Program-made: the position numbers and the translations under genes
Part shown: piece after piece, positions 1,251 through 28,753 of the stretch
Position numbering within the stretch: the first letter of the stretch is position 1
How the letters are laid out: each line of letters opens with the position of its first letter
DNA from: a virus
DNA: 28,816 bases
Reading direction: 5' to 3' (one strand)
Virus record (IMG/VR): IMGVR_UViG_3300030389_000512
Coordinates: 1-28,816 of that record
Notes under the pieces: model-generated
Database searches by the model: none
What the model was told of the DNA's origin: nothing
Seen by the model: the letters and a program-made list of their open reading frames with translations, nothing else

Positions 1251-2032
1251 AGAATATCCTCTATATAGTAACTATCTAAGTCTATTCCTTCTTGGAAAAA
1301 CTTCTTATATATTTCGATTCCTTTGCGAGTTCGTTTCTTACCACTCTCGTAAAACTCCTCACTAACGTGATATACTCCTATGTCTAGACTCCCTTTGTCT
1401 ATAGCGACAAAGTGGAAGTTCTCAGGAGGTATGTCAAATAGATTGCAATAGATGTATGCTTGTATATCATATCCGTACTTATAGCTACTATATTTAAATG
1501 CATCTAAGTCTTGCGTAGTCTTGAGATCAATAATATGATTGCCTTGTAGTATGTCGGCTTTTGCTCTAAACGGCATACCATCTAATTCATCTACTCTAGG
1601 TATCTCAAAGTATGACTCCTTGAGGTAAGATAGTACCTTCTCATTTCGGAGCATTGCATCTTGCAATCTCCGTATATCTCCTTCCTCTTTTCTAGTGATA
1701 ACCTCTACACCTTCTTCTAAGGCTTCTTTGAATGTCTTAGAGTTTCTGCTTTGTACATCTACTACCTTGACCTCATCCATCTTATGAGGTTCAAGGACTG
1801 CTAAGTGAAACAACTTACCAATAAGCAGAGCTTTGCTATTAGTATTTTGACCATAGGTAGTAACGTAGTTATAGGTCTTAGGAGATTGTAGTAGCATCTT
1901 AATAGATGAGGATGACAATGCTGCCTTACCTAGATATCCGTAGTATTGCTCATCGTCTAGTGCTATCTGCTCAAGGTGTCCTACCTCTTGGTAGACACCA
2001 TCAAGCATCAATATCTTTTTATCGTTGTGCAT
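1247..2032 (-). CDS. RecE-like PD-(D/E)XK exonuclease
   Basis: 261 aa. Motifs fit the RecE / exodeoxyribonuclease VIII C-terminal nuclease family: SSSIKMLLQSP near residue 41, GKLFHLAVLEP (72-82, with His76), FRAKADIL (Asp160), IIDLKTT (Asp169, Lys171) and YDIQAYIY (Gln191). Such enzymes resect double-stranded DNA for recombination or processing of replication intermediates. No RecT-like annealing protein was recognised next to it, although an SSB-like protein is encoded further upstream. The gene starts just after a 47-aa membrane protein and overlaps the PP-loop gene by 4 nt. Confidence 0.85.
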   Translation of the reverse strand: MHNDKKILMLDGVYQEVGHLEQIALDDEQYYGYLGKAALSSSSIKMLLQSPKTYNYVTTYGQNTNSKALLIGKLFHLAVLEPHKMDEVKVVDVQSRNSKTFKEALEEGVEVITRKEEGDIRRLQDAMLRNEKVLSYLKESYFEIPRVDELDGMPFRAKADILQGNHIIDLKTTQDLDAFKYSSYKYGYDIQAYIYCNLFDIPPENFHFVAIDKGSLDIGVYHVSEEFYESGKKRTRKGIEIYKKFFQEGIDLDSYYIEDIL

Positions 2033-2033
2033 A

Positions 2034-2177
2034 CTATCGGTATTGTATTGGTAGGTTAGTGGTGCTTTGTTCTATCCAGTTCAAGAGAACGGATAGCACA
2101 AGTAGTCCAGCAATAAATAATAGAGTCAGTATTACTGGAGGGTAATACTTCTTAATAAAGGTTTTGATAGTTCCCAT
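2034..2177 (-). CDS. Small single-pass membrane protein
   Basis: 47 aa, read by hand from ATG at 2177 to TAG at 2036-2034. Residues 1-11 are basic (MGTIKTFIKKY). One hydrophobic segment follows (about 15-33, VILTLLFIAGLLVLSVLL), then a short polar tail. The stop lies 1 nt before the start of the RecE-like gene, which supports translation. The function is not recognised; possible roles are membrane anchoring of replication or a host-takeover peptide. Confidence 0.6.
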   Translation of the reverse strand: MGTIKTFIKKYYPPVILTLLFIAGLLVLSVLLNWIEQSTTNLPIQYR

Positions 2178-2236
2178 AATAAATTATTTAGTTAGTGTTG
2201 TAATATACTGATTTGGATATATTGTTTCTTAGTTGC

Positions 2237-2261
2237 TAAGATAAGTTATTCACTTATCTTA
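2237..2261 (-). other. Perfect 10-bp inverted repeat at a gene end
   Basis: TAAGATAAGT (2237-2246), loop of 5, ACTTATCTTA (2252-2261). It overlaps the stop codon of the 130-aa nuclease gene. The stem is AT-rich and only a poor U-tract follows on the minus strand, so it is at best a weak terminator or an mRNA 3'-end structure. Confidence 0.4.
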
Positions 2262-2638
2262 TTAGCCAAATGTATAGATAAGAATCCTACGGTCTTAGTG
2301 ATTCTACTCCTGTCGGTAAAGTGTGATGTTTTAGGCAGTCCTTTCATATCCTCCCATATAGGTTCATCTATCTTACTTAGGTTGAAGACATAGATACCTT
2401 GAGGTGTGCTATTGATGTAGAAGGGAGTTGTTTCGTACTGCTTTGCTCTACGGATCAAAGCATCATATTTATCCTTCTCTATAATCAGGTCATCGTAGTG
2501 CTTATTCCTACACTTCAATTCTATGTCCATCTTGTATTGTTTGGAGTAGCAGTCAAAGCGAGAATACTGGTTCTCGCTTTTCTCCAAGTCTCTGCAATGA
2601 GTTATCTTGAGTATGTTGAACAAATCAACTTCCCTCAT
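2246..2638 (-). CDS. Putative PD-(D/E)XK nuclease
   Basis: 130 aa. The segment YSRFDCYS...MDIELKCRNKHYDD (about 25-50) has the spacing of a restriction-like nuclease core, with Asp38-x-Glu40-x-Lys42 and a conserved Tyr/Asp-rich stretch after it. C-terminal residues are hydrophobic and basic. The start overlaps the preceding 143-aa gene by 14 nt. Many phages carry such small nucleases for DNA processing or Holliday junctions, but the substrate cannot be read from sequence. The family call is by motif only. Confidence 0.55.
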   Translation of the reverse strand: MREVDLFNILKITHCRDLEKSENQYSRFDCYSKQYKMDIELKCRNKHYDDLIIEKDKYDALIRRAKQYETTPFYINSTPQGIYVFNLSKIDEPIWEDMKGLPKTSHFTDRSRITKTVGFLSIHLANKISE

Positions 2639-3056
2639 AAGTAGCGTATACTCCTTTGAGGTCTCCTATAAGTCGCTTCCATTCCTTAGGGGAACAAGAA
2701 CACGGAATAGAGAATGTATGACCAAAGACTCTGGAGTGTATCCTTGCTAGTGGTTCGGTGTACTTCTCCTCTATAACATTGCCTTTGAAATTATTGAAGA
2801 ACTCGGTAAGAGTTGTATACTCTCCCTCGTTCAAACATTCTATTACATTTCGTGTAGGGAACTTTCTATTAAGTGCCTCTTGTCTAGCATCACATCCACA
2901 ATCTAAACCAGTTGCCTCTGCAAAGAAGTCTACGACTTTCTTTATACCAGTAGCCTTAGTCACTTTTGCTATCTCGTCTCCTAGTCCTCTACTCTTGGGA
3001 GCCTTTGTACTCTTGGTACTTTTCTTTGTGCTTTTCTTTGATTTTTGTTCTGACAT
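2625..3056 (-). CDS. Conserved phage hypothetical, basic N-tail and Cys pairs
   Basis: 143 aa. The first 25 residues are a Lys/Ser/Thr-rich tail (KKSTKKSTKSTKAPKS) that could contact nucleic acid. The body has GLGDEIAKVTKATGIKKVVDF followed by a CGC motif near residue 54 and a CSC motif near residue 120. I recognise this general type from Bacteroidota phages but know no function. The start ATG (3056-3054) lies 68 nt inside the end of the sigma-like gene; there is no later in-frame Met before the conserved part, so the long overlap seems real. Confidence 0.65.
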   Translation of the reverse strand: MSEQKSKKSTKKSTKSTKAPKSRGLGDEIAKVTKATGIKKVVDFFAEATGLDCGCDARQEALNRKFPTRNVIECLNEGEYTTLTEFFNNFKGNVIEEKYTEPLARIHSRVFGHTFSIPCSCSPKEWKRLIGDLKGVYATYEGS

Positions 3057-3504
3057 TCTTCAGCGTATTAAATATTGAACTTGAACTTATTTTTGAGCCT
3101 TCGCTTAGTTGCCTTATGGTCTCATTGTTTCCATAGTATATCTCGAATATCTTTCGGTCATACCAATGTAGATTCTCAATAGTTTCAGATATATCTTCAA
3201 GCATCTCTTCAAGGAGATGCTTACAATCATTACTAGACTCCTCATATTCAAAGTCTTCTTTCAGTTCCACCAATGAAACCTTAGACCTCTTTCTATCATA
3301 GAATAAGTTCCTTAAAGTAACGTAAACATAGAACGTGTTTACATCATCATCTCCGTACTTGATTTTGTCGTACGTTGTTTTGTCGTACAACTTGAGATAC
3401 ATCTCCTGAACTAAGTCTCTAGAGGTTTCCTTGTCGAGACCAAAGCTCTGAGCCATACGCATCCAGTCTTTGTCTCTTTTGGAAAGTTTCTCTAGTAGTT
3501 TCAT
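2989..3504 (-). CDS. Sigma-70-like RNA polymerase sigma factor
   Basis: 171 aa. The N-terminal half resembles sigma region 2 (SRDLVQEMYLKLYD near residue 28, then a conserved YVTLRNLFYDRKR stretch). The C-terminal part resembles region 4, a helix-turn-helix (WYDRKIFEIYY, then TIRQLSEGSKISSSSIF and a basic recognition helix, about 115-160). An acidic linker lies between, as in ECF-type factors. Length and layout fit small phage or ECF sigma factors. Its place near the end of the early block and upstream of terS suggests control of late genes. That role is inference; no matching late promoter set was identified. Confidence 0.72.
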   Translation of the reverse strand: MKLLEKLSKRDKDWMRMAQSFGLDKETSRDLVQEMYLKLYDKTTYDKIKYGDDDVNTFYVYVTLRNLFYDRKRSKVSLVELKEDFEYEESSNDCKHLLEEMLEDISETIENLHWYDRKIFEIYYGNNETIRQLSEGSKISSSSIFNTLKNVRTKIKEKHKEKYQEYKGSQE

Positions 3505-3530
3505 AGGATTCTAGGTTGCGATAATATAAC

Positions 3531-3806
3531 CTATAATTCTATACGCTCTAGTAAATCCTCTACTTTTTTATTAAGAGCCTTTATCTCTCTCTTGAGGTCA
3601 CTATTCTCTTTCTCTAGTTTAGCATTTACTATCTGAGCATCTAGGATATTACTCTCTATCTTTTCTACGGAGGTCATACAAAAACTGATGGAAGAGTATA
3701 GAGCCTCCAGTTGAAGAACTGCAATACGATTGTCTGAATTGTCCTTTATCATCTCTCCTAAGATGATGAGCTGCTCTCGTAGAGCATACATAGCAAAACC
3801 ATCCAT
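3531..3806 (-). CDS. Coiled-coil protein of unknown function
   Basis: 91 aa. The C-terminal half (about 45-91) has a clear heptad pattern rich in Lys, Glu and Leu (AKLEKENSDLKREIKALN), predicting a coiled coil. The N-terminal half is mixed helical with two Met and one Cys. It lies 7 nt after the 76-aa gene and 27 nt before the sigma-like gene, in the same direction. The function is not recognised; oligomerisation is the only property supported. Confidence 0.6.
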   Translation of the reverse strand: MDGFAMYALREQLIILGEMIKDNSDNRIAVLQLEALYSSISFCMTSVEKIESNILDAQIVNAKLEKENSDLKREIKALNKKVEDLLERIEL

Positions 3807-3812
3807 CCTTCA

Positions 3813-4043
3813 TTATAGTATAGATTCTACTTCGTCAGCTATCGCATTCCATATATCGCCATAGTAGACCTTCTGCATTTCGCTATTGTATATCTTCAAG
3901 ACTTCATAATAGTCATCCATTGGAGGGTTATAGTAATCGCCTCTTTGTCCTTCGTGGAAGGCTAATTCTACATACCAATCGCATCCTGATATGACGAAGT
4001 GTCTGAGTTTCTCCCTTTGTTCTTTTGGTAATTTTACTTTCAT
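3813..4043 (-). CDS. Small hypothetical protein
   Basis: 76 aa, acidic and aromatic-rich in the middle (GDYYNPPMDDYYEVLKIY). No motif that I can name. The ATG at 4043 lies 16 nt after a TAATTTTG sequence that could be a -7 promoter element. It is likely part of the early operon. Confidence 0.6.
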   Translation of the reverse strand: MKVKLPKEQREKLRHFVISGCDWYVELAFHEGQRGDYYNPPMDDYYEVLKIYNSEMQKVYYGDIWNAIADEVESIL

Positions 4044-4058
4044 AGTTGGTTGTTTTTA

Positions 4059-4066
4059 CAAAATTA
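4059..4066 (-). promoter_or_regulatory. Candidate Bacteroidota -7 element (TAATTTTG)
   Basis: TAATTTTG on the minus strand matches the TAnnTTTG consensus fully and sits 16 nt upstream of the 76-aa gene, over the stop codon of the preceding gene. The nearest upstream TTTG (on the minus strand) is only about 14 nt away, shorter than the usual spacing, so the -33 element is poor. It may be an internal promoter. Confidence 0.3.
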
Positions 4067-4315
4067 TAAAATATCATCTACAAATATCGGAGTATGTTCT
4101 CCGATATCCGTATTAAAAGTATTATAGCATAGAAAATCTAGAGCATCTTCATATGAATAATCCTCTTGCATTATAATATATATACAAGTTTCTCTTGAGT
4201 ATACCACTCTCCAAGAGTGAGGATCAAAACCAATAATAGCTTCGTCAAAGCCATATGCAAAAGTAACCTCTTGCTCATCTGAGTATCTTTCAATGATAGT
4301 ATCTTTAATGCTCAT
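4064..4315 (-). CDS. Conserved phage hypothetical, acidic
   Basis: 83 aa, strongly acidic. It has the pattern ...FDEAIIGF..., VVYSRETCIYIIM, a YSYEDALDF stretch and GEHTPIF near the end, which I recognise as a small protein found across many phage genomes with no established function. It overlaps the methyltransferase stop by 11 nt, so it is translated with it. Confidence 0.65.
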   Translation of the reverse strand: MSIKDTIIERYSDEQEVTFAYGFDEAIIGFDPHSWRVVYSRETCIYIIMQEDYSYEDALDFLCYNTFNTDIGEHTPIFVDDIL

Positions 4316-5348
4316 ATATATACTTCATTTTTTGTGCTACTGCTTGTACCACAACAACCGTTACTGCGTTACCGCATTGCTTATATCTTTGAGTATTGCT
4401 CATCTTTTTTATCACACCATCGTAGTTACCATACTCGGTGTGATTATCAGGAAAGCCTTGTAACCTTTCGCACTCAATAGGAGTTAGTCTGCGGATTCGA
4501 TTGACTGCTTCATAAGTATATTTAGTATCTAATTGTATTACACCTTGATTTGAGGTAGGTTGGATTGTTTGTGCTTTTTTCTTACCTACTCTTCCTCTCC
4601 TGGTAGATGACTCTTGCACAAGACTTATACTATCTCCTTCAGTAGCTATCTCATAACCACATTTAGTACCACTTTTTACTTTTACTTTTTGTGGAGGGAG
4701 TTCACATTCACTAATGTACGAGCCGTTTGCTGTTGCTGCTTCATATCGTTGGAGGATGGTATGTGTTTTAAGGTTGTGTTTCGGTAACTTAGTATTCTCT
4801 CTTGACTCTTCTCCGATAGGAAAAACTCCTCTCCAATCTCCTTTGGGGGTTGTAGAATATCCGACAAGGTATATGCGCTCTCGGTTTTGGGGTAGAAACC
4901 ACGATGTATTAAGCAGTTCCCATTCAAGTCTATAACCCCCAATGTTGGTAAAGGCTTGGAGGATTGCCGCAAAGTCTGCGCCATCATTTGAGGAGAAAGT
5001 TCCTTTAACATTCTCCCAGACAAAAGCTCTAGGTCTGCATTCTTTGATAAGCCGTATTGCTTCAAGGATAAGAACTGACCGTTCTCCTTCCATACCTTTA
5101 CGCCTTCCAGCGAGACTAAAGTCTTGACAAGGACTTCCAAAAGTGATAAGGTCAATATTTGGGAGGTCTGCTCCTCGAACATCTCTAACTGCTCCGACAT
5201 ATTTTGAATCTTTAAATTGATGTTTATATACTGCTATTGCGTGTTGGTCTATCTCAGAGAAATAACTTTGCACTTCATATCCAGCACGTTCAAAACCTAG
5301 ATGAAATCCACCTATTCCACTAAATAAATCCAGTTGGTTAATCTTCAT
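4305..5348 (-). CDS. C5 cytosine DNA methyltransferase (Dcm/HhaI class)
   Basis: 347 aa from ATG at 5348. All main motifs are present: motif I DLFSGIGGF (7-15), motif IV GSPCQDFS with catalytic Cys74, ENV (112-114), QNRERIYLVG (154-163), a variable target-recognition region, then RLTPIECERLQGFP and QCGNAV near the C-terminus. It should methylate cytosine C5 in a short DNA motif that cannot be read from sequence. An in-frame TTG at 5387 would add 13 residues, but the ATG directly precedes conserved motif I and gives only an 11-nt overlap with the gene before it. No cognate restriction enzyme was recognised, so it is an orphan, probably protecting phage DNA. Confidence 0.93.
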   Translation of the reverse strand: MKINQLDLFSGIGGFHLGFERAGYEVQSYFSEIDQHAIAVYKHQFKDSKYVGAVRDVRGADLPNIDLITFGSPCQDFSLAGRRKGMEGERSVLILEAIRLIKECRPRAFVWENVKGTFSSNDGADFAAILQAFTNIGGYRLEWELLNTSWFLPQNRERIYLVGYSTTPKGDWRGVFPIGEESRENTKLPKHNLKTHTILQRYEAATANGSYISECELPPQKVKVKSGTKCGYEIATEGDSISLVQESSTRRGRVGKKKAQTIQPTSNQGVIQLDTKYTYEAVNRIRRLTPIECERLQGFPDNHTEYGNYDGVIKKMSNTQRYKQCGNAVTVVVVQAVAQKMKYIYEH

Positions 5349-5583
5349 CTCTTTTACGTTTTGCCTCTTCTCTGAATATCTTCTCAATGGTCTTTCTATT
5401 TGCTCTACGAGCTTTCCTATTTGGTATACTTGGTGCTTCAGGTAACTCTACAAAGTTTCTGATAAATGCTTGTTCATCCCTTGAGAGTTGACCTCTCAAG
5501 TGGACTTGAATCAATAGATCAAATATCGCTGCTAAGTTGTTCCTATTTATAAGTACGTTTGCACTCTTTCCTTCCTCACTCAT
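5338..5583 (-). CDS. Small basic hypothetical protein
   Basis: 81 aa. The N-terminal half is mixed (NVLINRNNLAAIFDLLIQ) and the C-terminal half is highly basic (NRKARRANRKTIEKIF, then Lys/Arg/Asp). The ATG overlaps the stop of the preceding 43-aa gene (ATGA) and the end overlaps the methyltransferase by 11 nt. The basic tail suggests nucleic acid binding; no family is recognised. Confidence 0.6.
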   Translation of the reverse strand: MSEEGKSANVLINRNNLAAIFDLLIQVHLRGQLSRDEQAFIRNFVELPEAPSIPNRKARRANRKTIEKIFREEAKRKRDED

Positions 5584-6681: not shown

Positions 6682-7598
6682 ATTTGAGTCTGAGTGTATT
6701 GTTTGTTTCTAAGTCTTTGAACAAGGTCAATACCTCCTATCTCAAATCCTACGTTACCTATCTTACTCCTTAAAAGAATAGGGTTATCCATTCCAGTAGG
6801 TCTCCCTCCTGTCTCCATCTCTTTAACTTTGCGTATATGCAAGTGCGAGTACATCCAATCTTCAGATGATGTATACCTATGACATACTAGCATATCCGTT
6901 GCACGATTCACCCATTTACCTCCTCCTTCAGCATCTGCCGCCATCGGAGGACAAGGGAATCCTTCATAGTCGTGACCTTTCTTATGCACTCTTCTAAGTG
7001 CATCAGTTACTGCGTGAGTGTTTAGCCATATAGATACATCCATCTCCGAGCAGAACAACCTCATCATACTAGCAGCGAGGTAGTCGTAATCGTGACCAGT
7101 CAAACCAGCTAGAGCATTTTTATCTTTTGTCAGAGAGTTGTACGGATCAATAAGAAATCCATCGTACTCCCATTCTGAGTGAATGTCTCTTGCTACCTTG
7201 AGTAATGTTTTAAAAGTCATTAGTTCTGATGTATCTATAATATTGAAGAACTGACCTAAGAACATTAAGCTCGTCTCGAACTCGTGCATAGATAACTGCT
7301 CTAAGGTTTTGCCGTTGTAGTATTCTATGAGTTTCTTCATAAGAGAATAAGGCTCATTCTCGCTGGAGTATATAAGCCACTTGATGTCGTGCTTTAGAGA
7401 AAGCACCAACATCAGATACATAGTCAAGCTAGTCTTTCCTACGTTAGCGTGTCCTAGTATTATATTAAATGCTTTTGGCTTGAACCTGAAGTATTCGTCT
7501 ATACCATCGTGTCCAAATTTATAACCTTCTTTTATCCTCCCTTCTTTGACTGCTAGTAGTTGTTCGTGCAGTTGGCTATAGTCAATCGTTTTCTCCAT
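6678..7598 (-). CDS. DnaB-type replicative helicase, ATPase core only
   Basis: 306 aa. RecA-fold ATPase: Walker A GHANVGKTS (49-57), Walker B DGFLIDPYNS with Asp151, then WLNTHAVTD and PPMAADAEGGG, a pattern of phage DnaB/KaiC-like helicases. Family DnaB is about 450 aa with an N-terminal primase-interaction domain, which is missing here. No primase was recognised in the window, so host primase is probably used. It overlaps the 59-aa gene before it by 17 nt and the HNH gene after it by 4 nt. Confidence 0.82.
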   Translation of the reverse strand: MEKTIDYSQLHEQLLAVKEGRIKEGYKFGHDGIDEYFRFKPKAFNIILGHANVGKTSLTMYLMLVLSLKHDIKWLIYSSENEPYSLMKKLIEYYNGKTLEQLSMHEFETSLMFLGQFFNIIDTSELMTFKTLLKVARDIHSEWEYDGFLIDPYNSLTKDKNALAGLTGHDYDYLAASMMRLFCSEMDVSIWLNTHAVTDALRRVHKKGHDYEGFPCPPMAADAEGGGKWVNRATDMLVCHRYTSSEDWMYSHLHIRKVKEMETGGRPTGMDNPILLRSKIGNVGFEIGGIDLVQRLRNKQYTQTQI

Positions 7599-7816: not shown

Positions 7817-8276
7817 AGAAGGGTAAGTCTTCGGCTTGTTCCAATACCTTTTCCCTTGCTGCTGATGGAGATGGTGCTTTTACTTCAGGAGTCTTGGTGT
7901 CCTTTTGGTTTACCCAATTGTTAAAGATTTCAGCAACCTCTAGAACTTGTTCGCACTTAAACTTACGACCTTGACTAAATTCTACTGCTGATTTCAAAGC
8001 CACTTGGCGCACGATCAAATCTTGCTTAGAACCTCCTCCATCGTATCCTCTTTGTGATATGCTACTTTTTGCTATTCCATTAGAATACTCAGGATTCACT
8101 CTACGGAATCTTGACTTCTCCACATCGTATGTGTAAGTCAAGTCTTCTCCTACTTTTGGCTCATAACTCTTAGCGAGTATTGAGCCACTTTGACCGTTAG
8201 CTAACTTTAACTTATAAATGTTAAAGTCGTTCCATTTTGTTTCGAACATTACGTCCGTAATCTTAGATGATTTCAT
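7815..8276 (-). CDS. Single-stranded DNA-binding-like protein
   Basis: 153 aa. The N-terminal part (about 1-65) is beta-rich with alternating hydrophobics (FNIYKLKLANGQSGSILAK), as in an OB fold. The C-terminus ends in an acidic tip EDLPF, like the partner-binding tail of SSB proteins. A Gly-rich, basic middle follows the fold. A terminator comes straight after the stop, as if it is made in larger amounts than the helicase genes downstream. The call rests on the acidic tip, the strand pattern and the replication context. Confidence 0.62.
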   Translation of the reverse strand: MKSSKITDVMFETKWNDFNIYKLKLANGQSGSILAKSYEPKVGEDLTYTYDVEKSRFRRVNPEYSNGIAKSSISQRGYDGGGSKQDLIVRQVALKSAVEFSQGRKFKCEQVLEVAEIFNNWVNQKDTKTPEVKAPSPSAAREKVLEQAEDLPF

Positions 8277-9345: not shown

Positions 9346-9765
9346 TTATTTTCGTAATAATCTCGTTAGAGAGATTATTACTATTAGTATGATTAGTATA
9401 AGTAATAAGAACTTAACTTGGTCAAAGGTACTGACTTTTTCTTTATAAATCAACTTATCTACCTCAACTTCTTTAAATATCTTAATAGTATCAGGAGGAC
9501 ATATTGTCTCTAAGATGATAGTATCGTGTCTTACTTCTATCTCAGTCCTTACTCCTCCTTGCTCTACGATCAAAACCGTGTCAGTCTTGAACTCTACTTT
9601 AGCCTCTAAAGTTTTTGTTTCAGTAACTACTATAGTATCTACCTTTACTTTCTCCACTTGAGAGATGGTTGGGTCTTTAGCTATCGCTCTTTTCAGATGA
9701 TAGTTAGCACCACAACTTGATAGTATCAAGGCTACTATAATTATATTACATCTTAACTTCCACAC
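9346..9765 (-). CDS. Candidate unimolecular spanin (lipoprotein with C-terminal TM)
   Basis: 139 aa from GTG at 9765; no in-frame ATG precedes the signal. The N-terminus is a lipoprotein signal with lipobox LSSC (Cys18). Residues about 30-100 are beta-rich with repeated V-D-T-I-V type strands, and residues about 117-136 form one hydrophobic helix (FLLLILIILIVIISL) followed by a basic end. An outer-membrane lipid anchor plus an inner-membrane helix in one chain is the plan of u-spanins such as T1 gp11, which fuse the two membranes in the last step of lysis. Position in the lysis cassette supports this. Confidence 0.75.
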   Translation of the reverse strand: MWKLRCNIIIVALILSSCGANYHLKRAIAKDPTISQVEKVKVDTIVVTETKTLEAKVEFKTDTVLIVEQGGVRTEIEVRHDTIILETICPPDTIKIFKEVEVDKLIYKEKVSTFDQVKFLLLILIILIVIISLTRLLRK

Positions 9766-10151: not shown

Positions 10152-11228
10152 TTACCTGAATTGATAATTTATACCAGCCCTCATATTAAAGAGCCTCCTA
10201 TCCCAATACTTACGATATTCGCCTTCTGCAAATACTCCCCATCGTTTACCTATCTTCCATCCTAAGACTACACCTCCAGTATAGTCTAGCCATTGGTTAC
10301 CATCTATATAATTATTATATGAGAACTGTTCATCTCCAACCATATGCTGATGCGAGAACAATAGACTTGCCCAAGTATGTAACCAAAACTTGTCAGTATA
10401 ATGGTAGTAGTCTATACCGGCAACTGCGCTTAGAGAACCGAGATATCCTATACTATCTAAGACCTCTCTATTATATCTTCTCATAAGGTCGGGAAAGACG
10501 TGCCTCCTAAAGTCTTCATCACTATCTGCAATCTCATTACCTTCTAAGTCTTCCCATCGCCAGTCATAGTCATCTATACTATCATTGAGGTTGTTATCTA
10601 TTCCGTACAAGAAGTCATTGAATCCCTGACCGTATGCAAACGCAAACCAAGGAATTGAATCAAGCAACTCTTCAACTGGATTGTATCCGTAAGGTTTGTT
10701 CTGCCTTGTTGCAAGTCCAATGCTAAAGTCAACTTCTCCAATGTGGGTTCTAAGTCTAAGGTCGGTTTGTCCATACTTTAAATTAACCAACCCTTGAGAG
10801 AAGTATTCGCCTTTGACAAGCCAATACTTCGCAAGGTATCTAAGAAAGTATCTTTGGTTCTCATACGCTCTACCTTGTTGCCTACCCATATCGTACTGCG
10901 CTAGGTATTCAAAACCTCTTACACTTCCAACCGTTGCATTAAGAGATATGGTAGATTCTGTTTGTCCATCATAGAATCTATTACGTCTATTCTCGTAATC
11001 GTATCTTGCTACCCTTCGTATGCCGAAGGTAGCTTGATAGTCATATGGATTCTCAATAGTGATATCTTTTATCTCCCCCATCTGATTGATGTAATACTCA
11101 GTTCTTACCTTCATAGGTGTACTAGCAAAAGCACTTGTATAGAAGGTAGCATACTTGAATATACCATCTATCTTTTGAGCGATCAAAAGAGATGGAAGTA
11201 ATAGTAGTATCAATAGATATCTCTTCAT
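10152..11228 (-). CDS. Predicted outer-membrane beta-barrel protein
   Basis: 358 aa. Signal peptide MKRYLLILLLLPSLLIA with cleavage before Gln18, the typical Bacteroidota form. The mature chain is rich in Tyr, Phe and Trp, with alternating strand patterns and short Asp/Asn-rich turns, ending with a final strand MRAGINYQFR, as in outer-membrane barrels. No enzyme motif is seen. It lies in the lysis cassette, sharing one base with the thioredoxin-like gene before it. Possible roles: changing the host surface to block superinfection, weakening the outer membrane at lysis, or nutrient uptake. Fold inferred from pattern; role open. Confidence 0.65.
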   Translation of the reverse strand: MKRYLLILLLLPSLLIAQKIDGIFKYATFYTSAFASTPMKVRTEYYINQMGEIKDITIENPYDYQATFGIRRVARYDYENRRNRFYDGQTESTISLNATVGSVRGFEYLAQYDMGRQQGRAYENQRYFLRYLAKYWLVKGEYFSQGLVNLKYGQTDLRLRTHIGEVDFSIGLATRQNKPYGYNPVEELLDSIPWFAFAYGQGFNDFLYGIDNNLNDSIDDYDWRWEDLEGNEIADSDEDFRRHVFPDLMRRYNREVLDSIGYLGSLSAVAGIDYYHYTDKFWLHTWASLLFSHQHMVGDEQFSYNNYIDGNQWLDYTGGVVLGWKIGKRWGVFAEGEYRKYWDRRLFNMRAGINYQFR

Positions 11229-12680: not shown

Positions 12681-13570
12681 TATAATTTAGTATAGTAGTT
12701 AGTATACCACGCAGTTTCTATTGCTGACATCTTTGCATCAGTAAGGCTACCTCCAAATCCGAACATACCCATAGTATTACCAGCAAACATCTGGTCAGAA
12801 CTTCTTGCACCTAGTAGGATCAAATCTTCTGCTGGTAGTGCATTGGAATCTACTCCGCTTGAGTCTACCGCAGACTTAGTATTCGATGCTGCAAGGTCGG
12901 TGCTTCTAAAGTTTATGGTATCAGATGCAGTTCTATTTTGAAAGAAGATGGTATCGTTATCTTTATGAATATCCATCTCTTGGTATTGGTTATCGTTTAT
13001 CCAGTTTCGGTTACCACTATTTGAACCATCTACTTGCAAACGAGGACTTAGGTAGTTGCTACTACCATCATTACCATATATTCTATTGTTTGTTTGATTG
13101 CTACTATCCATTATTGGGAAGGCTGCAAAGGCACCAGCATCATCTCGAGTATAGTTAGTAGCATCTGATGAGTTCAAAGTAAATCCAGTAGCAAGTCTTG
13201 AAGTACCTCCGTTTGACCAACCTTTGTTAGATGTAAAGCTCGGACTATTAACCTTTGTAAGTTTGAATTGTGTCGGACTCTTGAAGTTCAAAAGAGTAAA
13301 GTCACTACCGCCATCAAGCGTAGTGACTGCAAAGATATATAGCAAGTCTAACTCATCCCACACCGCAGCATCTTTCAAGGCTTTTACAAAAGTGTTTTGT
13401 AGCACTTGATGTGCAGCAGTTGGAGGTGCAAATCCATTAGTAGTACCAGCATTCAATACTGCCGCATAGTCATCATCATATCCTAGACCTTCGTATACAT
13501 CCCCCCAATCGTTGAGGTTGACTCTACCATCACCCCAATCAGTTGTCTCGTATATCTTTCCGTATCCCAT
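12680..13570 (-). CDS. Putative tail fibre / receptor-binding protein
   Basis: 296 aa. Rich in Asn, Ser, Asp, Gly and aromatic residues with many short strand-turn patterns. The second half (about 135-290) has the feel of a lectin-like jelly roll: AFAAFPIMDSSN, DNDTIFFQNRT, ILLGARSS, then FGGSLTDAKMSAIETAWYT at the C-terminus, a helix seen in host-recognition proteins of marine Bacteroidota phages. There are no catalytic motifs. It lies between the connector genes and the endolysin, and is likely to bind the cell surface. Medium confidence, from composition and position. Confidence 0.55.
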   Translation of the reverse strand: MGYGKIYETTDWGDGRVNLNDWGDVYEGLGYDDDYAAVLNAGTTNGFAPPTAAHQVLQNTFVKALKDAAVWDELDLLYIFAVTTLDGGSDFTLLNFKSPTQFKLTKVNSPSFTSNKGWSNGGTSRLATGFTLNSSDATNYTRDDAGAFAAFPIMDSSNQTNNRIYGNDGSSNYLSPRLQVDGSNSGNRNWINDNQYQEMDIHKDNDTIFFQNRTASDTINFRSTDLAASNTKSAVDSSGVDSNALPAEDLILLGARSSDQMFAGNTMGMFGFGGSLTDAKMSAIETAWYTNYYTKL

Positions 13571-16980: not shown

Positions 16981-17907
16981 TTATGCGTAAAGCACTACCT
17001 CTGAACCTACTCCGTGAATTACCCCAGCAGTCATTCTCATAACTACACGAACATTTTGGCTACCATCAATGTCAGCCATATCTATCAACTTAACCTCGTT
17101 GTGGTCTGATAACAAACCAGTACCGAAGAACAAGTTCGACTTCTGAGCAGCTACCATTGTGTTAGCAGCAAGACCTGGAGATACGAAAATCTTCACGCCA
17201 TCAAAAGCTAAGTCTCCACCATTGAACCAAGTAGTACCAGCGTTATTCACACCATTTGCACCTAGTCCGTTAGCACCGAATCCACCTAAAGCACGAACAT
17301 AAGAACGAGCGATAGCAGAGTTCATATAGATGTATAAGTCTTCCTTTCCGTAAAGAGCAGAAGGAATAGCATCTACAACCTTACCTAACTCATCAATAAC
17401 ATTAGATGCAGTTACGGTTGTACCAGTTACATCTACTACGTCAGAGTCAGCAGCAAGTTGTAATTTCAATCCGTTGAATTGTCCGTCATTTGATCCGTTA
17501 CCGTCCCAAATATTTTGCTCAGTTTTCTCTGCTACTTTCGCTGCAACGTGAGCGATAATAAAGTCAGCAAAGCTAGAAGGTAAAGTGTCAAATGCACTAA
17601 AGCCTTGTTCTGCACTTAGCCAGTCTGAGTGAAAGTCTTTCTTACAAAGTTGTAAGTTTACTTGGAACTCATCAGGAGCAAGTACACGCTCAGTCAATGT
17701 AACCGTAGAGGTAGCACTAAAGTCACAAGATGCATCCTTGAGGATTGCATCGGTGCTTAGTTTCTTAATTACCTCTTTGAATTTTACATTAGGTTTAATT
17801 GTAATACCACCACCCTCGATAGTATTAGCTGAAAGAAGTGCTGCTGCGATTATCTCACCAGCGTACTCTCCAGCATAAGTTGTTGTGATTGATGTAGTTG
17901 TAGCCAT
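16981..17907 (-). CDS. Major capsid protein (HK97-like)
   Basis: 308 aa. HK97-type features: a helical and charged N-terminal third (VKFKEVIKKLSTDAIL), LAPDEFQVNLQLCKKDF, an E-loop/P-domain segment, EQNIWDGNGSNDGQFNG, then the A-domain (VIDELGKVVDAIPSALYG, LYIYMNSAIARSYVRALG) and FDGVKIFVSPGL, VVMRMTAGVIHGVG at the end. The scaffold gene precedes it by 15 nt and a strong terminator follows, as expected for the most abundant protein. No clear protease site is seen at the N-terminus. Confidence 0.85.
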   Translation of the reverse strand: MATTTSITTTYAGEYAGEIIAAALLSANTIEGGGITIKPNVKFKEVIKKLSTDAILKDASCDFSATSTVTLTERVLAPDEFQVNLQLCKKDFHSDWLSAEQGFSAFDTLPSSFADFIIAHVAAKVAEKTEQNIWDGNGSNDGQFNGLKLQLAADSDVVDVTGTTVTASNVIDELGKVVDAIPSALYGKEDLYIYMNSAIARSYVRALGGFGANGLGANGVNNAGTTWFNGGDLAFDGVKIFVSPGLAANTMVAAQKSNLFFGTGLLSDHNEVKLIDMADIDGSQNVRVVMRMTAGVIHGVGSEVVLYA

Positions 17908-18988: not shown

Positions 18989-20569
18989 TTACTTAGGTTT
19001 TTTTGGATGACCAGTAGGCAGTAGGTCATTGTCTCCAGTATACTTAGGATTTTGTGGTCTACCATTCTTCACGAGGTACAAAAACGCATTGACTCTTGCA
19101 AATGCCCATTGTGAGGGATTATTTACTCTTGGAGACCTTGATACATTAAATGCTCCAAGTCCTCTCTGGAAGACGGACTTGAGCATCCCTACATTGACTC
19201 CGTATCCTAACTTCTTCTTGTATCTCTCGTTGAAGTCATCACTCTTCTTCTTGAGAGATGCTTCGTCCTTCTTACTTACCTTTGCACCTCTTGAGGTACT
19301 AGCATCTCCTTTAGCAGTTCCTTTGCCTTTAGGATTAGGATTTGGTGTGTCTGACTTAGGTGCTTTAGGAGATTTGCGTATACCACCTCTTTCTCCTACC
19401 TCAGCCATCTTCACACATCTGCCCTCTTTGTTTTTCTTATATCCTTTAGGACACTTCTTAGTCTTGTACATATCGTCTTTGATATGGAACTCGCAAGGCA
19501 TATACCAAGTCTTACCCTCAAACTCGTGAGTATGGAATCCTTTGCACCCTATGTTTCTCGCCATCTCTTCAGCCTTCTCTTGAGTGCTATATGCAAGTCT
19601 ATCGTCTATAATAGCGAACTGGTCATCTACTACCATAGATGCTAGGTTCAACTGACCTAACTCTTTTAGCTTAGACTCCGACCATCTCTTAGCAGCCTTG
19701 CCTCCCCATAGCAAGTAGGAGATAGTACCACAAGCCTTAGTATCTGACTCATCATAATACTCCTCTGCTCTTGATAAGAACGAGTACATACGTTTGATCG
19801 TTTGTAAAGATATTGGTTGCCCTTGTGCAAGTTGTTGCGCTCTGACCTTACCTACTTGAGTAGCACATTTATTATTTACTTTTTCATTTAGGTCTATCCC
19901 TCTCTGAGCATTATTGCGTACTGCATTGGGATAATCAGAGTAGCTTTCTAATTCAGTACGCTTACCTTTTTTTGTTCTTAGGTCTTTCTTGATTATAGCA
20001 CGAATCGCATTGAGTTGCTCTTGTGCCTTCTCTTCCTCTGCTTGTATCTTAGACATATTGACTTTGTCAGCAAAGTATCCTTCAATAGAGAATCCTTTTA
20101 CCTTACCATTCTTGACATACTCATTCCAGACCTTGTCATTGTACACCTTCATAGATACCATCCAAGTACCAATAGGAACATCTAAGCCATACTCTCTACT
20201 CTTGTCTTTCTCTCCATCAACTATCCAAGACTCTACCACACTCAAACCCTCAAGCTCGAAGTTATGCTCTAGCGTACTCTTGTTTTGTTTGCCTTGAGTT
20301 AAGTACAACTCGCTGACCTTTCTGACCGTGTCCTTAGAGAAGTATATATAGTATTCCTCGTCTCCGTTCTTACGGAAGATTGTCTTGTTTGGTATCAAAG
20401 CAGCACCCATCAGGATACGCTTCTCTCCATCTACCTCTGCAAGTTTATACTCTTGCTCTTTCTTTAATGTGATGAAGTCCGACTCTATAGCTGGTTGCTC
20501 TACGATACTGATGGCTTGAACGCCACTCAGTATCTGCTCTTCATCTAGGATCAATTCTACTATCTTCAT
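18989..20569 (-). CDS. XkdF-like prohead protease fused to extra domains
   Basis: 526 aa. Residues 1-170 fit the XkdF-like phage serine protease: EQPAIESDF near the start, STLEHNF with His102, VESWIVDGEKD, GTWMVSMKV, and VKGFSIEGYF with Ser161. His102 and Ser161 are the likely catalytic pair. After a helical linker come a Cys-containing middle (RMYSFLSRAEEYYDESDTKA, GTISYLLWGG), GCKGFHTHEFEGKTWYMPC, and a C-terminal part resembling DUF5824 (VFQRGLGAF, PSQWAFARVNAFL). It should cut scaffold during capsid maturation; the added parts are unexplained. Confidence 0.75.
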   Translation of the reverse strand: MKIVELILDEEQILSGVQAISIVEQPAIESDFITLKKEQEYKLAEVDGEKRILMGAALIPNKTIFRKNGDEEYYIYFSKDTVRKVSELYLTQGKQNKSTLEHNFELEGLSVVESWIVDGEKDKSREYGLDVPIGTWMVSMKVYNDKVWNEYVKNGKVKGFSIEGYFADKVNMSKIQAEEEKAQEQLNAIRAIIKKDLRTKKGKRTELESYSDYPNAVRNNAQRGIDLNEKVNNKCATQVGKVRAQQLAQGQPISLQTIKRMYSFLSRAEEYYDESDTKACGTISYLLWGGKAAKRWSESKLKELGQLNLASMVVDDQFAIIDDRLAYSTQEKAEEMARNIGCKGFHTHEFEGKTWYMPCEFHIKDDMYKTKKCPKGYKKNKEGRCVKMAEVGERGGIRKSPKAPKSDTPNPNPKGKGTAKGDASTSRGAKVSKKDEASLKKKSDDFNERYKKKLGYGVNVGMLKSVFQRGLGAFNVSRSPRVNNPSQWAFARVNAFLYLVKNGRPQNPKYTGDNDLLPTGHPKKPK

Positions 20570-22534: not shown

Positions 22535-24658
22535 TTACACATCGTTAAGTAATTCTAGGTTTGCCTCTCCAGTAGTAAGATTCATTTGTACTGAGTTGAT
22601 TATGTACGTTCTTTGAAGAATAATAATCTTATCATTATTCTTCAAACGTAGTAGGATGCTTATAGGCAACCTTGCTTTGAATTTAAATATCCTTCTTTGA
22701 GTATTGTATAGGTCGGTTATGTAGTCCTCCCAAAAGCCTCTGAACAATCCGCTTTGAAAAGCGATAAGATGGTATGAGTCAGTCTCTACTCCAAAGTTTA
22801 TTGTTTGAGTCACATCATCATCAGTAGTAGCATTCGTATTGCTTACCAACCAAAAAGCATCTTTGGTCTGCACTCCATTACTCATATCTATGAAGTAGTA
22901 TTGACTACCTGATGCAAGACCAGTAATCGCTGCTGGTATATTGAACAAAAGAGGTTTACCTATATAGGCTTCTAGTTCTCTATTGATACTTCTCCCTACG
23001 CTTAGTGCAGTTTGTGTATCGGTGTTTTGATCCGTCAACCTCTCATATATCTGATGGTCAAAAGGTACTTCTACTTTGAACTCTCCACCATCGTATGTAA
23101 AGTCTGCTTTTACATCTCCGTAGTTTCTATCATTGTCAAGTCTGAATTGCTCTTCTAGTATGCTATTTGCATCGTTGAACTTATACTCTATTCTCTTGTA
23201 AAGTTCAGGCTTTTTTATCTCCGTATTTTCGACATCTATATACTTTGTTATGTCGATGGTAGCACCCTCGCCATACCAATCATCTAAAGACTCTATGTCG
23301 AAGTTCTTTATTGTTGTAAAAACATCGCCTGAATCCGTTGAAGTCTTAGTAGTAGTTTGACCAGTTGGTACGATAACCAAGTTGAACATCTTTACAATAC
23401 CACCAAAGAACTCGCTTACCTTTTGTTCAGGTAATTGGTCAGCCATTCTGATAAACTTGGTAACGCTTTGAGTTCCGCTATTACTTGCTGCTATTATAGT
23501 ATCTACGTTTGTGATTACTCCGTTACTTGCTCTCTTTTGTAAAGTTATTTGGATAGTCAAACTAGAGACCGTTATACTTGCTGCCGCATCTCTCCTATCA
23601 GAGATGCGTATATCATATACTCCTTTCTCATCAAAAAAGAACTTACCACTTGCACTTGTTCCCTCCTTATGGGTATCTATAATCTCTCCATCTTTGAAGA
23701 GGTGTATCTTAGATTTGATAGAACCAGTATAACTATATTCGAGTCTAAGTCTATAGCTATCGGTAGGAGTAAATGCACTTGTTACATACAAGTCGCTTGT
23801 CAATTCATAAGATGAAGAGCCAAGAGTCCATACATCATTAGCCGTTTGAATGTTTGCACTCCTATCATCAGTAGAGGTAGTATTCAAAGTAAGCAATGTA
23901 GGAGTATCTCCTAAGTCATTGTCTTTGAATAGGAAGTTTGCTCTACGATGCGCCCACATATAAAGCATACCAAAGTTAGTTCCTCCAAAAAATTCACTAT
24001 CAAAGTTTACCGAGTACTTTGTTTCTATTGCCTCAATAATCCTCTTAACCTTTATCGCTGGTTTCAACTCATACCAAAAGCATCCGTGCTTTGTACTTGT
24101 AGCACCATTAGCTGCTAAGTTCTCTGCATCCATATTAGACGATGAGTCATACTTCCAATTCCTCTTAGGAGATATCAATGGATATACTACTGAGTCACTT
24201 GTGCTAGGCACAAACGCACTAAGACCAGTCTCTACATTTGTATTAGTGTATTCGTGGTCTTGTGCTGATAAGTCTAGGTCATTCAAAGTATCCTCTCCGA
24301 ATAAGTCCTTAAGGTTTGTATTGTTAGAGTAGAATGATACTTTATATGCGTAAGGCTCGTTGCCTTTCATTTGAACCGATTCTAATTCTATAGTACCAGC
24401 CCTGAATAAATTATTATTTATCTCTATCAAACTATCTACTCTCGTTTGAGCATCAAACGGAGTAGCTATATCTACATTGTAGTAGTGCTTGAAGATACCA
24501 TTATTATTAGGTGTTGCTGGTAATGTAAATGACTGAGTAAAATCGCCAAAGACTTTTGAGATGTCTTTGACGTTTTGAGTAGATAAGGTAATACTTATAT
24601 CCTCATCCTTGAACGTATCAACTCTTTGATCGCTGATATATATCTCTACCTTATACAT
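22535..24658 (-). CDS. Large tail-tip / baseplate protein
   Basis: 707 aa. The N-terminal part contains ISKVFGDFTQSFTLPATPNN followed by FKHYYN, a recurring pattern of Bacteroidota phage tail proteins, then long strand-rich regions and many Asp/Asn/Thr. Residues about 130-400 include SDVV-YPLISPKRNW and strand-turn repeats; the end has INREL and YIINSVQMNLTTGEANLELL. It is the largest gene in the window. Position between two tail genes and the tape measure suggests a distal tail or hub protein. No catalytic motif. Confidence 0.62.
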   Translation of the reverse strand: MYKVEIYISDQRVDTFKDEDISITLSTQNVKDISKVFGDFTQSFTLPATPNNNGIFKHYYNVDIATPFDAQTRVDSLIEINNNLFRAGTIELESVQMKGNEPYAYKVSFYSNNTNLKDLFGEDTLNDLDLSAQDHEYTNTNVETGLSAFVPSTSDSVVYPLISPKRNWKYDSSSNMDAENLAANGATSTKHGCFWYELKPAIKVKRIIEAIETKYSVNFDSEFFGGTNFGMLYMWAHRRANFLFKDNDLGDTPTLLTLNTTSTDDRSANIQTANDVWTLGSSSYELTSDLYVTSAFTPTDSYRLRLEYSYTGSIKSKIHLFKDGEIIDTHKEGTSASGKFFFDEKGVYDIRISDRRDAAASITVSSLTIQITLQKRASNGVITNVDTIIAASNSGTQSVTKFIRMADQLPEQKVSEFFGGIVKMFNLVIVPTGQTTTKTSTDSGDVFTTIKNFDIESLDDWYGEGATIDITKYIDVENTEIKKPELYKRIEYKFNDANSILEEQFRLDNDRNYGDVKADFTYDGGEFKVEVPFDHQIYERLTDQNTDTQTALSVGRSINRELEAYIGKPLLFNIPAAITGLASGSQYYFIDMSNGVQTKDAFWLVSNTNATTDDDVTQTINFGVETDSYHLIAFQSGLFRGFWEDYITDLYNTQRRIFKFKARLPISILLRLKNNDKIIILQRTYIINSVQMNLTTGEANLELLNDV

Positions 24659-25871: not shown

Positions 25872-26402
25872 CTATTCCTTAAAATTGTTTTTTAATGTGA
25901 ACTCTAAAAAGTCTTGTACATCTAATTGAAAAGCCTCCCTCACTTCTTGAGGTAGTCTTTTGAATCCTAAAGTAAAAGCTCGTGTAAAGAAGTAACTTGG
26001 TTTTATACCTTTGTTGTATACGCTATTGGCTATAATAAAAGCTAGGCTCTTACGAGGTATGAATCTTCCTTGCTCGTCTCTTATACCATCTAGTCCTCTA
26101 CGCACCATCCACTTATCAAATACTTTTGCTGGAGGTCTTTTGGTTGTGTACTTGTATGGTGTATTATACTTCTTCTTTACACCACTTACCCCTTTGTCCT
26201 GAAACTCTCCATACTCCTCCATCTTGAAATCAAGGGAGAAGGATACACCACTACCACTACTTCTCAAATCATATTGAATGCTATCATATAGTTCCTTAGA
26301 TACGTTCTTATTCTTTCTTGTCAAGTTTGCTCGTGCTTGTTGCACGACATACTTGCCGAAATCATTTAAGGCTTTCTCAAGGTTCTTAGGATTAACAAGC
26401 AC
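25872..26402 (-). CDS. HK97 gp10-like head-tail joining protein
   Basis: 176 aa. Pattern of HK97 gp10 family: LEKALNDFGKYVVQQARANL at the N-terminus, SKELYDSIQYDL, then YGEFQDKGVSG, and a C-terminal helix (PSYFFTRAFTLGF). Such proteins act at the tail completion or neck. It overlaps the 158-aa gene by 11 nt and precedes the tail-tip genes. Confidence 0.7.
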   Translation of the reverse strand: MLVNPKNLEKALNDFGKYVVQQARANLTRKNKNVSKELYDSIQYDLRSSGSGVSFSLDFKMEEYGEFQDKGVSGVKKKYNTPYKYTTKRPPAKVFDKWMVRRGLDGIRDEQGRFIPRKSLAFIIANSVYNKGIKPSYFFTRAFTLGFKRLPQEVREAFQLDVQDFLEFTLKNNFKE

Positions 26403-26868
26403 TCAAATCAGTATTAGGTATTGTAATCGCTATACTCATATCCCATCCAGCTAGACTATTCTCAAACCTATCTACAAAAGGCTCACAAGTTGGAGTACCT
26501 TCTATTTGGAACTTCTCATCGTATAGGCTACCTCTTGATAGTAGAGAGTATAATTTATTGGATGTTGCTAACATTGTGTTCAGCACATCTTGTTCGTTCG
26601 TGTTGCCTCTGAATGGTTGATCGGTTGCCGATATGCCTCTAGCATCTCGCTTATTGAAGTCTACCACATCCATAAATAGTATGTTCAGATTGAAGGTCAT
26701 ACTATGAGGTTGGAACGTAGTATTATTTACTATGATATGGCTTAGTGGAAAGATTGTCTGCTTGTTCAAATCAACCTCTGATAAGTCTCCCTCCGTGACC
26801 GTGTTTATGCTTGGCTCTGCCTCTAAAGTTGTGCGTAGCTTTTCTAGTATGTCGTAGTATCCTCTCAT
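26392..26868 (-). CDS. Tail terminator/completion candidate
   Basis: 158 aa. It begins MRGYYDILEKLRTTLEAEP, then TIFPLSHIIVNNTTF, SMTFNLNILFMDVV and a last strand WDMSIAITIPN. This helix-strand layout with the gp10-like gene beside it is that of small tail terminator (completion) proteins. The ATG overlaps the stop of the shifted frame of the upstream gene as ATGA (26868-26865), which supports that shifted reading. Assigned by fold pattern and place. Confidence 0.55.
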   Translation of the reverse strand: MRGYYDILEKLRTTLEAEPSINTVTEGDLSEVDLNKQTIFPLSHIIVNNTTFQPHSMTFNLNILFMDVVDFNKRDARGISATDQPFRGNTNEQDVLNTMLATSNKLYSLLSRGSLYDEKFQIEGTPTCEPFVDRFENSLAGWDMSIAITIPNTDLSAC

Positions 26869-27595
26869 ATCTTAAGTAACGATTTCTCTAATTCGTTTTT
26901 CTCCTTGTCATAGGTCATCATAGTAAGTGCGGCAAAAAGTCTGAGTTTGCTAATTTTTTCAAATCTTGTAACATCGCCCTGAGAGAGATGATAGAAAGTG
27001 GTGTACCATCCCCACTTTCTTCCGAAGTTTGCGGTTGAACTGAGGTCGTGTTCTCCTCCAGTTGCATTAAAGAGGGAGTCAAAGCTATCGACAACTCTAT
27101 CCCTAAATGATAAAAAAAAAACAAAGCACCGAGTACAACATCCATAGTTAAGCCTTTCATCCGATGTTCACTATCAGATGTGCCTTCATATTCTTCTATA
27201 TTGTACTTGTCCTTTCTTCTGCTCTTGATAGGTCTATACAATACCGCCATAGTGGTATGCATCTTCTCCCAATCGTTTATGCTCTCATCAATATCTACAT
27301 ACTCTCCTAGAGATATCTCTTCTAGGTTAGGTATGAATCCATACTCAACATCCCCCATAGTATGAATCTTTCTTAGTTGAGGTTTGTCTTCAAAGAAAGA
27401 CATAATCCTTGTTGCATAGTTCTTTACATCTTTGTATGACATCTTGCTCACTATTATCAAGGGTACATTACAGAATATCTCTACGCACTTTTGTGCTAGG
27501 AATAGTTCATCCTCACTATTCACTTGTAAGAACTTTTGATATTGTTCTAAGGTAATATCAAACAAACCTTCTGGTATTATTATATCTACTTTCAT
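26865..27595 (-). CDS. Conserved tail-module protein made by -1 frameshift (243 aa)
   Basis: The zero frame from ATG at 27595 gives 225 aa ending at 26918. At residue 159 it meets ten T (27121-27112). After a -1 shift there, the frame runs 82 more codons to TGA at 26867-26865, with a product of about 243 aa containing FNATGGEHDLSS, KWGWYTTFYHLSQGDV, RFEKISKLRLFAALTMM and KEKNELE. The WGWY part is a pattern I know from conserved Bacteroidota phage proteins; the zero-frame tail is low-complexity Ser/Gln/Glu. The shifted stop gives an ATGA overlap with the next gene. Either programmed slippage or a one-base homopolymer error explains it. A tail assembly chaperone role is plausible only. Confidence 0.75.
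27112..27121 (-). promoter_or_regulatory. Ten-T slippery run
   Basis: TTTTTTTTTT on the minus strand, coding FFF then Tyr in the zero frame. It is where the reading frame must change to reach the conserved C-terminus. A U-run can support ribosomal or polymerase slippage. A miscalled homopolymer length cannot be excluded. Confidence 0.6.
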
Positions 27596-27598
27596 ATC

Positions 27599-28753
27599 TT
27601 ATCTGACCGCATACCTACCATAGTTAGGTCTGCTCAGTCTATTATAGGTTGCATATCTTGCTGCATCAATAGCGTGATTATATTGGTCTACTGGTTTGTT
27701 CAGTATCCTTCCGTTGCTATCCTCTACAAATTTATAGTTTCTTAGTTCTTTTATTAGATTCTTGCTCGTGTTTGTGACATTGATTCTATATCTCTTGAGC
27801 ATATCAATACCAGCCATAACTGAGTCTTTACCCTTTGCCGTAGCCTTTATATTCCATCCGAATAGCTGAAGCTCACGGATGGACTTAGGTTCTGCACTAT
27901 CTGCAAATATCTCTACCCTTCTATCGAATCCTAGAGAGGTTAGCTTGTTGTGGATGTCTCTATTAGTTAGACCAGTTTGATACACCAACTCATCAAAGTA
28001 TAAGTCTATTTCTTTCCGATAGGCTAATACCAACGTGGTAGGGTCATTGGTGAATCCGAAGTCCATCCCTCCAGCGATCAAAGTAGAACCTTCAGGAATA
28101 TGAGTGACCTCTTGATGTGAGAATATGGTAGCCTTGCTTTGCCCTCTCTCTCCAAGACCGTAAACTCTCCAGTAGTTCTCATCAGTTAGTTTGAGTCTTT
28201 CTATCTCCTCCTTGATAGTCGCAGATAAGAAGGGATTGTCTTTGTAGGTAGTCTTGAAGAACTCGCAGTCAGGTCTTGTAATAACTTGGTCATATATCCA
28301 ATGGTACTCATCTGATGGGTTATAGTCAAGAATAATCTTACCAGTAGTACGCATTACCAACTGCCTCCAATCTTCTATGGTAAGTTCGTTAGCCTCATTG
28401 CAGAAGAGCATATCTCTCTTTCTACCTCGTATCTTCTGAGGTTGGTCTAAAGATATAAACTCTATGATATTGCCGTAGCAGATATACTCGCTATTGGATT
28501 TATTATGCTTTGTCCAGTCATACCTATTCATTGACTTCAGTATCTCAAAGAAGTCTCTCATCACGGATGCTCTGACCGAAGGAAAGGTCTTACGGCAGAT
28601 TGTGATTATCTGCCGTTTGTTTGGATTCTGCATACAATAGTAGATAAGCCATATAAGGATGTTATATGTCTTACCTGACCTTGTACCGCCTTGTTCTACT
28701 ATTATCCTCTTAGAACTATTCTGAAGGTGTTTGAATACCTTGTTCGTCTTCAC
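27599..28753 (-). CDS. terL: Terminase large subunit
   Basis: 384 aa. ATPase part: Walker A GGTRSGKT (22-29), Walker B MLFCNEAN (115-122), and LDYNP (142-146). RNase H-like nuclease part: GGMDFGFTNDPT with Asp231, EIFADSAEP with Asp285, and NHAIDAARYA with Asp363, the three acidic residues for two metals. It pumps DNA into proheads and cuts it. The start overlaps the terS stop by 38 nt on the circular genome; the next gene starts 3 nt after its stop. Family: PBSX-type terminases. Confidence 0.95.
   Translation of the reverse strand: MKTNKVFKHLQNSSKRIIVEQGGTRSGKTYNILIWLIYYCMQNPNKRQIITICRKTFPSVRASVMRDFFEILKSMNRYDWTKHNKSNSEYICYGNIIEFISLDQPQKIRGRKRDMLFCNEANELTIEDWRQLVMRTTGKIILDYNPSDEYHWIYDQVITRPDCEFFKTTYKDNPFLSATIKEEIERLKLTDENYWRVYGLGERGQSKATIFSHQEVTHIPEGSTLIAGGMDFGFTNDPTTLVLAYRKEIDLYFDELVYQTGLTNRDIHNKLTSLGFDRRVEIFADSAEPKSIRELQLFGWNIKATAKGKDSVMAGIDMLKRYRINVTNTSKNLIKELRNYKFVEDSNGRILNKPVDQYNHAIDAARYATYNRLSRPNYGRYAVR

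Follow-up and report, generated by a model that had tools for sequence, protein, structure and literature searches.

How does a viral genome come to hold the word GATC in one sequence context only, and at nearly even intervals? The question is raised by virus record IMGVR_UViG_3300030389_000512, analysed over positions 1 to 28,816 (28,816 bases, hereafter the window; GC content 37.9%, in agreement with about 38% given in an earlier note on this DNA). That note had listed 18 GATC sites, each of them TTGATC or GATCAA. The list proved exact and complete: GATCAA is read on one strand at 18/18 sites (Table 1), AA lies on exactly one side of each, and no further GATC occurs. GATCAC, GATCAG, GATCAT, GATCCA and GATCGA are absent from both strands of the window.

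The number of GATC expected is 95 from base composition and 109 from a second-order Markov model, close to the figure of about 100 proposed before, whereas a null model that keeps every protein lowers it to 80.6±6.8 (500 synonymous-codon shuffles). GATC is strongly under-represented against this protein-preserving null as well, as is typical of restriction-site avoidance. In the same shuffles 20.4±3.9 AA-flanked GATC are expected, with 18 observed, in line with the earlier statement that the allowed context occurs near chance (about 19 expected). For the other flank classes about 60 sites are expected and none is observed; a count by flanking context, as the note had recommended, likewise leaves no GATC outside the AA context. 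Shuffles that also keep dinucleotides at codon boundaries give similar expectations (80.7 GATC, 21.0 AA-flanked). The allowed class thus stands at its neutral count while all remaining GATC have been lost, which means that GATC is strongly selected against unless flanked by AA. Read on the coding strand, TTGATC occurs more often than codon shuffles predict (13 vs 6.7-8.5) and GATCAA less often (5 vs 12.6-13.8), hence the tolerated context shows an orientation bias. Along the window, GATCAA lies on the plus strand at 11/11 sites left of 16 kb and on the minus strand at 5/7 sites to the right.

If GATCAA were invisible to the selecting enzyme, these sites would be neutral and random placement would be expected. 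Instead, the 17 gaps between the 18 sites have a mean of 1562 bp and a coefficient of variation (CV) of 0.297, with a minimum of 753 and a maximum of 2480. None of 200,000 uniform placements reached so low a CV, and AA-context sites in 3000 codon shuffles gave 1.00±0.21, the lowest value being 0.47. Close pairs are missing (P 3e-5 for the minimum gap of 753 under random placement). In a comparison of 1355 words that are 4-6 letters long and present 10-60 times, none is more evenly spaced than GATC and its extensions GATCA and GATCAA. Evenness is not a general property of avoided words, since AGCT, CTAG, TCGA and ACGT, all of them partly depleted words of the window, show no significant evenness. 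Strict lattice order was likewise rejected, lag-1 gap correlations being inconsistent across phages. These data show selection on spacing. Avoidance of short gaps is well supported; long gaps are likely to be avoided as well, a conclusion that depends on the assumed neutral supply of sites. The earlier proposal, selection by a GATC-cutting enzyme that spares one context, therefore stands in its first part, depletion with a flank exception. Simple sparing is incomplete, because it provides for no further order among the remaining sites.

The flank rule recurs in related phages, a comparison that the earlier note had called for. In the nearest locus, L009 (95-99% identity over most aligned stretches, lower in tail genes), 14/14 GATC are AA-flanked, with a CV of 0.34. 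Five of these 14 sites are absent from the window and all five are GATCAA; the window has an aligned sequence other than GATC at two of them and nothing aligned at the other three. The AA context is also found at 5/5 GATC of L081 and at 5/6 of L161. Chance or codon usage is refuted for depletion and flank rule by the codon-shuffle nulls and this recurrence, and given the uniform placements it is a practically negligible explanation of the spacing as well.

Two phages with about 76% DNA identity to the window, L001 and L162, contain ordinary numbers of GATC (29/39 and 50/54, observed/expected), which indicates that the GATC state of the window is recent. Avoidance is thus not fixed in the lineage. 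Only 0/27 and 1/31 of their GATC sites are kept in the window (1/58 aligned), and of the window sites compared with them 1/11 is GATC there. At 95-99% identity within the window's group, few words are less conserved than GATC (0.81 vs a mean of 0.89). Positions thus turn over fast under a constant rule and spacing. Purifying selection on single sites is unsupported in this group, given the below-average conservation of GATC; in two other groups its conservation at 95-99% identity is higher, the pairs compared not being independent. The annotated phage collection contained no close relatives at DNA level.

Spacing was further surveyed in related phages, represented by 107 contigs with a minimum length of 9 kb; these contigs are partly related to each other and so do not amount to 107 independent tests. 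The most evenly spaced 4-mer was GATC in 8 and CCAG in 10 of them, where about 0.8 is expected for each. GATC is even in L221 (29 sites, mean gap 399, CV 0.34), G015 (51 sites, CV 0.49) and L192 (15 sites, CV 0.27), and G001/L095 are further strong cases. The AA rule is absent from all of these. Other flank biases occur: GATC of L192 is found almost only as GGATC, and in several phages CCAG is found almost only as CCAGA. In G010, G006, L108, L103, L184 and G005, CCAG is depleted, mostly CCAGA (62/66 in G006) and even, independently of GATC spacing. A ruler shared by GATC and CCAG was rejected, as the spacings of the two words are independent in most of the 13 contigs tested; such independence would be expected if each word had its own enzyme. 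Across 52 depleted contigs GATC lies within 6-base palindromes 97 times vs 295 expected, and many depleted phages, including the window, have no GATC in such a palindrome. GATC is missing altogether from many relatives, so the sites are dispensable to such phages in general; no prominent alternative evenly spaced word was detected in these zero-GATC phages. A single phage gene behind even spacing was sought by family association over the 107 loci, which returned only weak, lineage-driven matches. One possible but rather doubtful account of these cases is a spacing code, in which GATC (here only GATCAA) or CCAG would be held at intervals of 0.4-1.6 kb, short gaps and long ones alike being selected against, through a marking or reading system of limited range belonging to host or phage.

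Even spacing and flank rule together suggest that a DNA-cutting or DNA-marking system of the host senses neighbouring letters as well as the distance to the next site. Terminase relatives in sequenced genomes are mostly from Bacteroidota. The best one (60%) is from a Flavobacteriaceae metagenome-assembled genome, and another 60% match is from a metagenome-assembled genome of Winogradskyella. Our survey covered 200 genomes from the family of the latter, which is the likely host family. Seven of them (7/200) encode a protein of 465-481 aa with two MutH domains, the second degenerate, and all MutH matches in the survey lie in such two-domain proteins. In 3/4 loci read, the gene is located directly downstream of a C5-methyltransferase gene. 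Two MutH domains and an adjoining C5-methyltransferase gene are also the arrangement of Sau3AI. This type IIE enzyme contains a MutH-like domain in duplicate, and the second copy is the effector site (PMC548270). Type IIE enzymes require more than one site (PMC4081073). The search for DpnII/MboI-like systems in candidate hosts, also proposed in the earlier note, gave DpnII-type enzymes above cut-off in 4/200 genomes.

As a possible rather than a probable explanation, we favour selection of the pattern by a two-site, Sau3AI-like GATC nuclease of Bacteroidota hosts that acts poorly at GATCAA. Bacteroidota infected by such phages would carry GATC-cutting restriction systems, and selection would purge GATC from phage DNA. 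The enzyme would have to engage two GATC at once, with the intervening DNA looped, and would be slow at AA-flanked GATC. GATC in good context would be lost altogether, while GATCAA would be tolerated unless another site lay within several hundred bases. New GATCAA arising by mutation would be kept in wide gaps and removed near another site; as a result, positions would turn over and spacing would stay even. In kind, the depletion of GATC is ordinary restriction avoidance. Several other 4-mers of restriction type are avoided in the window (CATG 0/81, GGCC 0/14, CCGG 1/15, CGCG 1/13, observed/expected), which we count as support for restriction.

Several points weigh against the Sau3AI-like nuclease. 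The phage has no known host, and nuclease, modification and host are linked to it only indirectly. We know of no GATC enzyme with a GATCAA exception. Further difficulties arise from models that assume stationarity and take their estimate of the neutral supply of sites from shuffling the codons of the genome as it is today. Purging of close pairs from a neutral supply is expected to lower the count and to leave a long upper tail of gaps. With AA-context supply, repulsion alone produced 18 sites with a CV of 0.30 in 0/966 samples, and repulsion-only models fail for phage L221 too. The gap distributions are symmetric with a truncated upper end, unlike those of a minimum-distance rule (P 0.009 for the window, 0.0001 for L221, 0.0014 for G015), and models that limit gaps from below as well as from above match count and evenness in 60-100% of samples. 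When all 109 GATC are taken as supply, the best model (hard-core, 750 bp exclusion) attains both in 3.6% of samples. Thinning of an earlier denser state can yield a CV near 0.25, only from all contexts and not from the AA class alone. Since repulsion misses count and evenness with AA supply, a gap-filling component, namely a protective mark needed at intervals, may be involved.

According to this explanation, the main rival, host or phage places a 'self' modification of limited reach at GATCAA, so that a markable site is needed about every 1.5 kb and unmarkable GATC is purged. It would account for a neutral count combined with even spacing and for the missing long gaps, and the success of the two-limit models speaks for it; nevertheless we hold it to be unlikely. 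A candidate mark is phosphorothioation by Dnd or Ssp systems, whose motifs include GATC and CCA/CAG and whose sites are partly modified. In a gut community, phosphorothioate motifs include G*ATC, C*CA and C*AG, most of the modified members belonging to Bacteroidota (PMC11931770), and the two words with even spacing here are GATC and CCAG. The window also encodes a PAPS-reductase-superfamily protein whose only PADLOC match is SspD, but the same model matches control genomes, which makes this match weak. By tblastn the gene was not found in the evenly spaced G001, G010, G012, G015, L192 and L221, some of these contigs being partial. The window genes scanned include no complete set of either dnd or ssp genes, and dndC is above cut-off in only 4/200 genomes of the surveyed family. 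Individual GATCAA sites are not conserved, and phosphorothioate positions differ between molecules (PMC8053081). This variation and the control matches lower phosphorothioation as the main explanation.

Slightly less likely still is the model of the earlier note, in which a DpnII/MboI-type enzyme cuts sites singly and AA-flanked GATC is unrecognised, or protected by a methyltransferase, and hence neutral. The AA-context count at its neutral value fits it, as do the DpnII-type enzymes of the host-family survey and the C5 methyltransferase of the phage, but neutral sites should be as random as those in the shuffles. Moreover, the close methyltransferase homologue in L081 differs (69% in the best segment), yet L081 obeys the rule at all its sites, and relatives with the same methyltransferase family show no AA rule. 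We consider it very improbable that the phage's own Hjc-like nuclease reads GATC and causes depletion and spacing. In a first comparison the phages with even GATC had homologues of it, and four other phages yielded none; however, the predicted fold is that of a Holliday junction resolvase, and homologues of 70-75% occur in GATC-free L164 and L177 as well as in L165 and L166, where GATC is undepleted and random. This PD-(D/E)XK protein was rejected as a GATC nuclease on account of its fold and of close homologues in phages with any GATC pattern. Equally improbable is methyl-directed mismatch repair, where MutH-like nicking would make GATC costly while some sites would be needed within 1-2 kb of any mismatch. 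Selection against GATC via mismatch repair is discussed for phiX174 (PMC5014478), and spacing of 0.4-1.6 kb would fit. On the other hand, the MutH-domain proteins found in the likely Bacteroidota hosts are of the two-domain, Sau3AI-like kind, beside a C5 methyltransferase in 3/4 loci read, and neither CCAG spacing nor the AA rule is explained.

Avoidance itself is of a known kind, whereas of the flank rule and of the even spacing we found no description in the literature searched. Phages are known to deplete short restriction words including GATC, with fast change between relatives (PMC6286503). Known cases concern word counts, to which the window adds an absolute flank exception and even spacing. 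Distance between sites is known to matter in viral genomes (Krueger et al. 1995, as cited in PMC6286503), and with two-site enzymes such as EcoRII it decides cutting (type IIE section of PMC4081073). The window differs from EcoRII-type cases in its many regularly spaced sites and in that long gaps are missing too. Distance-dependent cases of that type reportedly involve phages with very few, far-apart sites. Sau3AI is closer in recognising GATC, in needing a second site and in having homologous operons in the likely host family (PMC548270). It differs in that no GATCAA exception is known, and any link between these operons and the phage is putative. Restriction-site avoidance has so far been measured by word counts. 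Should distance govern the arrangement of sites as well, phage genomes would record how an enzyme works (one site or two, range, flank preference), and the sequence by itself would suffice to tell, even where the host is uncultured. The pattern also offers a direct test between looping enzymes that select phages in nature and a hidden modification that needs sites at intervals.

Table 1. GATCAA sites and genes considered in the window.
Feature	Position	Strand	Remark
GATCAA site 1	1525-1530	+	
GATCAA site 2	2453-2458	+	AATCAA in relative L161 (site absent)
GATCAA site 3	4222-4227	+	
GATCAA site 4	5517-5522	+	
GATCAA site 5	7145-7150	+	within helicase gene
GATCAA site 6	8013-8018	+	
GATCAA site 7	9568-9573	+	
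GATCAA site 8	11181-11186	+	
GATCAA site 9	12818-12823	+	
GATCAA site 10	14719-14724	+	within portal gene
GATCAA site 11	15766-15771	+	within portal gene
GATCAA site 12	17490-17495	-	plus strand TTGATC; TTGCTC in relative L009 (lost)
GATCAA site 13	19794-19799	-	plus strand TTGATC
GATCAA site 14	20549-20554	+	GATTAA in L009
GATCAA site 15	23027-23032	-	plus strand TTGATC; not in L009
GATCAA site 16	24626-24631	-	plus strand TTGATC
GATCAA site 17	26617-26622	-	plus strand TTGATC
GATCAA site 18	28076-28081	+	within terminase gene
PAPS-reductase-superfamily protein	402-1250		only PADLOC match SspD, 39 bits, superfamily level
Hjc-like Holliday junction resolvase (predicted), 130 aa, PD-(D/E)XK	2246-2638		fold: best solved match Archaeoglobus Hjc, E 2e-4
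Open reading frame with ECF-type sigma-factor match	2989-3504		TIGR02937, 43 bits
C5 cytosine DNA methyltransferase, 360 aa, possible modifier	4305-5387	-	Pfam PF00145 E 2.7e-70; NCBIfam TIGR00675 E 8.7e-76

In the C5 methyltransferase family of these phages, the recognition region between motifs VIII and IX ranges from 76 to 212 residues, a variability that suggests swapped or stacked target modules. Clusters of recognition domains were considered as a correlate of the GATC/CCAG pattern and rejected, as the domains vary continuously and form a single cluster. The PAPS-reductase-superfamily protein is 87% identical to its counterpart in L087, a phage otherwise different, which suggests recent exchange of the gene between the two. 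The open reading frame with the sigma-factor match possibly encodes a phage transcription factor.

Composition is unusual in other words too. L221 strongly avoids GA/TC except in GAT/ATC, and G015 (L111) avoids TCA/TGA, ATG and ATC; AGC/GCT is over-represented in both. In the window ACAG and CTGT together occur 17 times vs 134 expected. Strong avoidance of ACAG is also seen in L009, L081, L086, L100 and L125, while L001 is normal in this respect. Finally, AAGCTC/GAGCTT is among the most even words of the window (17 sites, CV 0.39); its count is three times the Markov expectation, AGCT being halved, yet near the codon-shuffle expectation.

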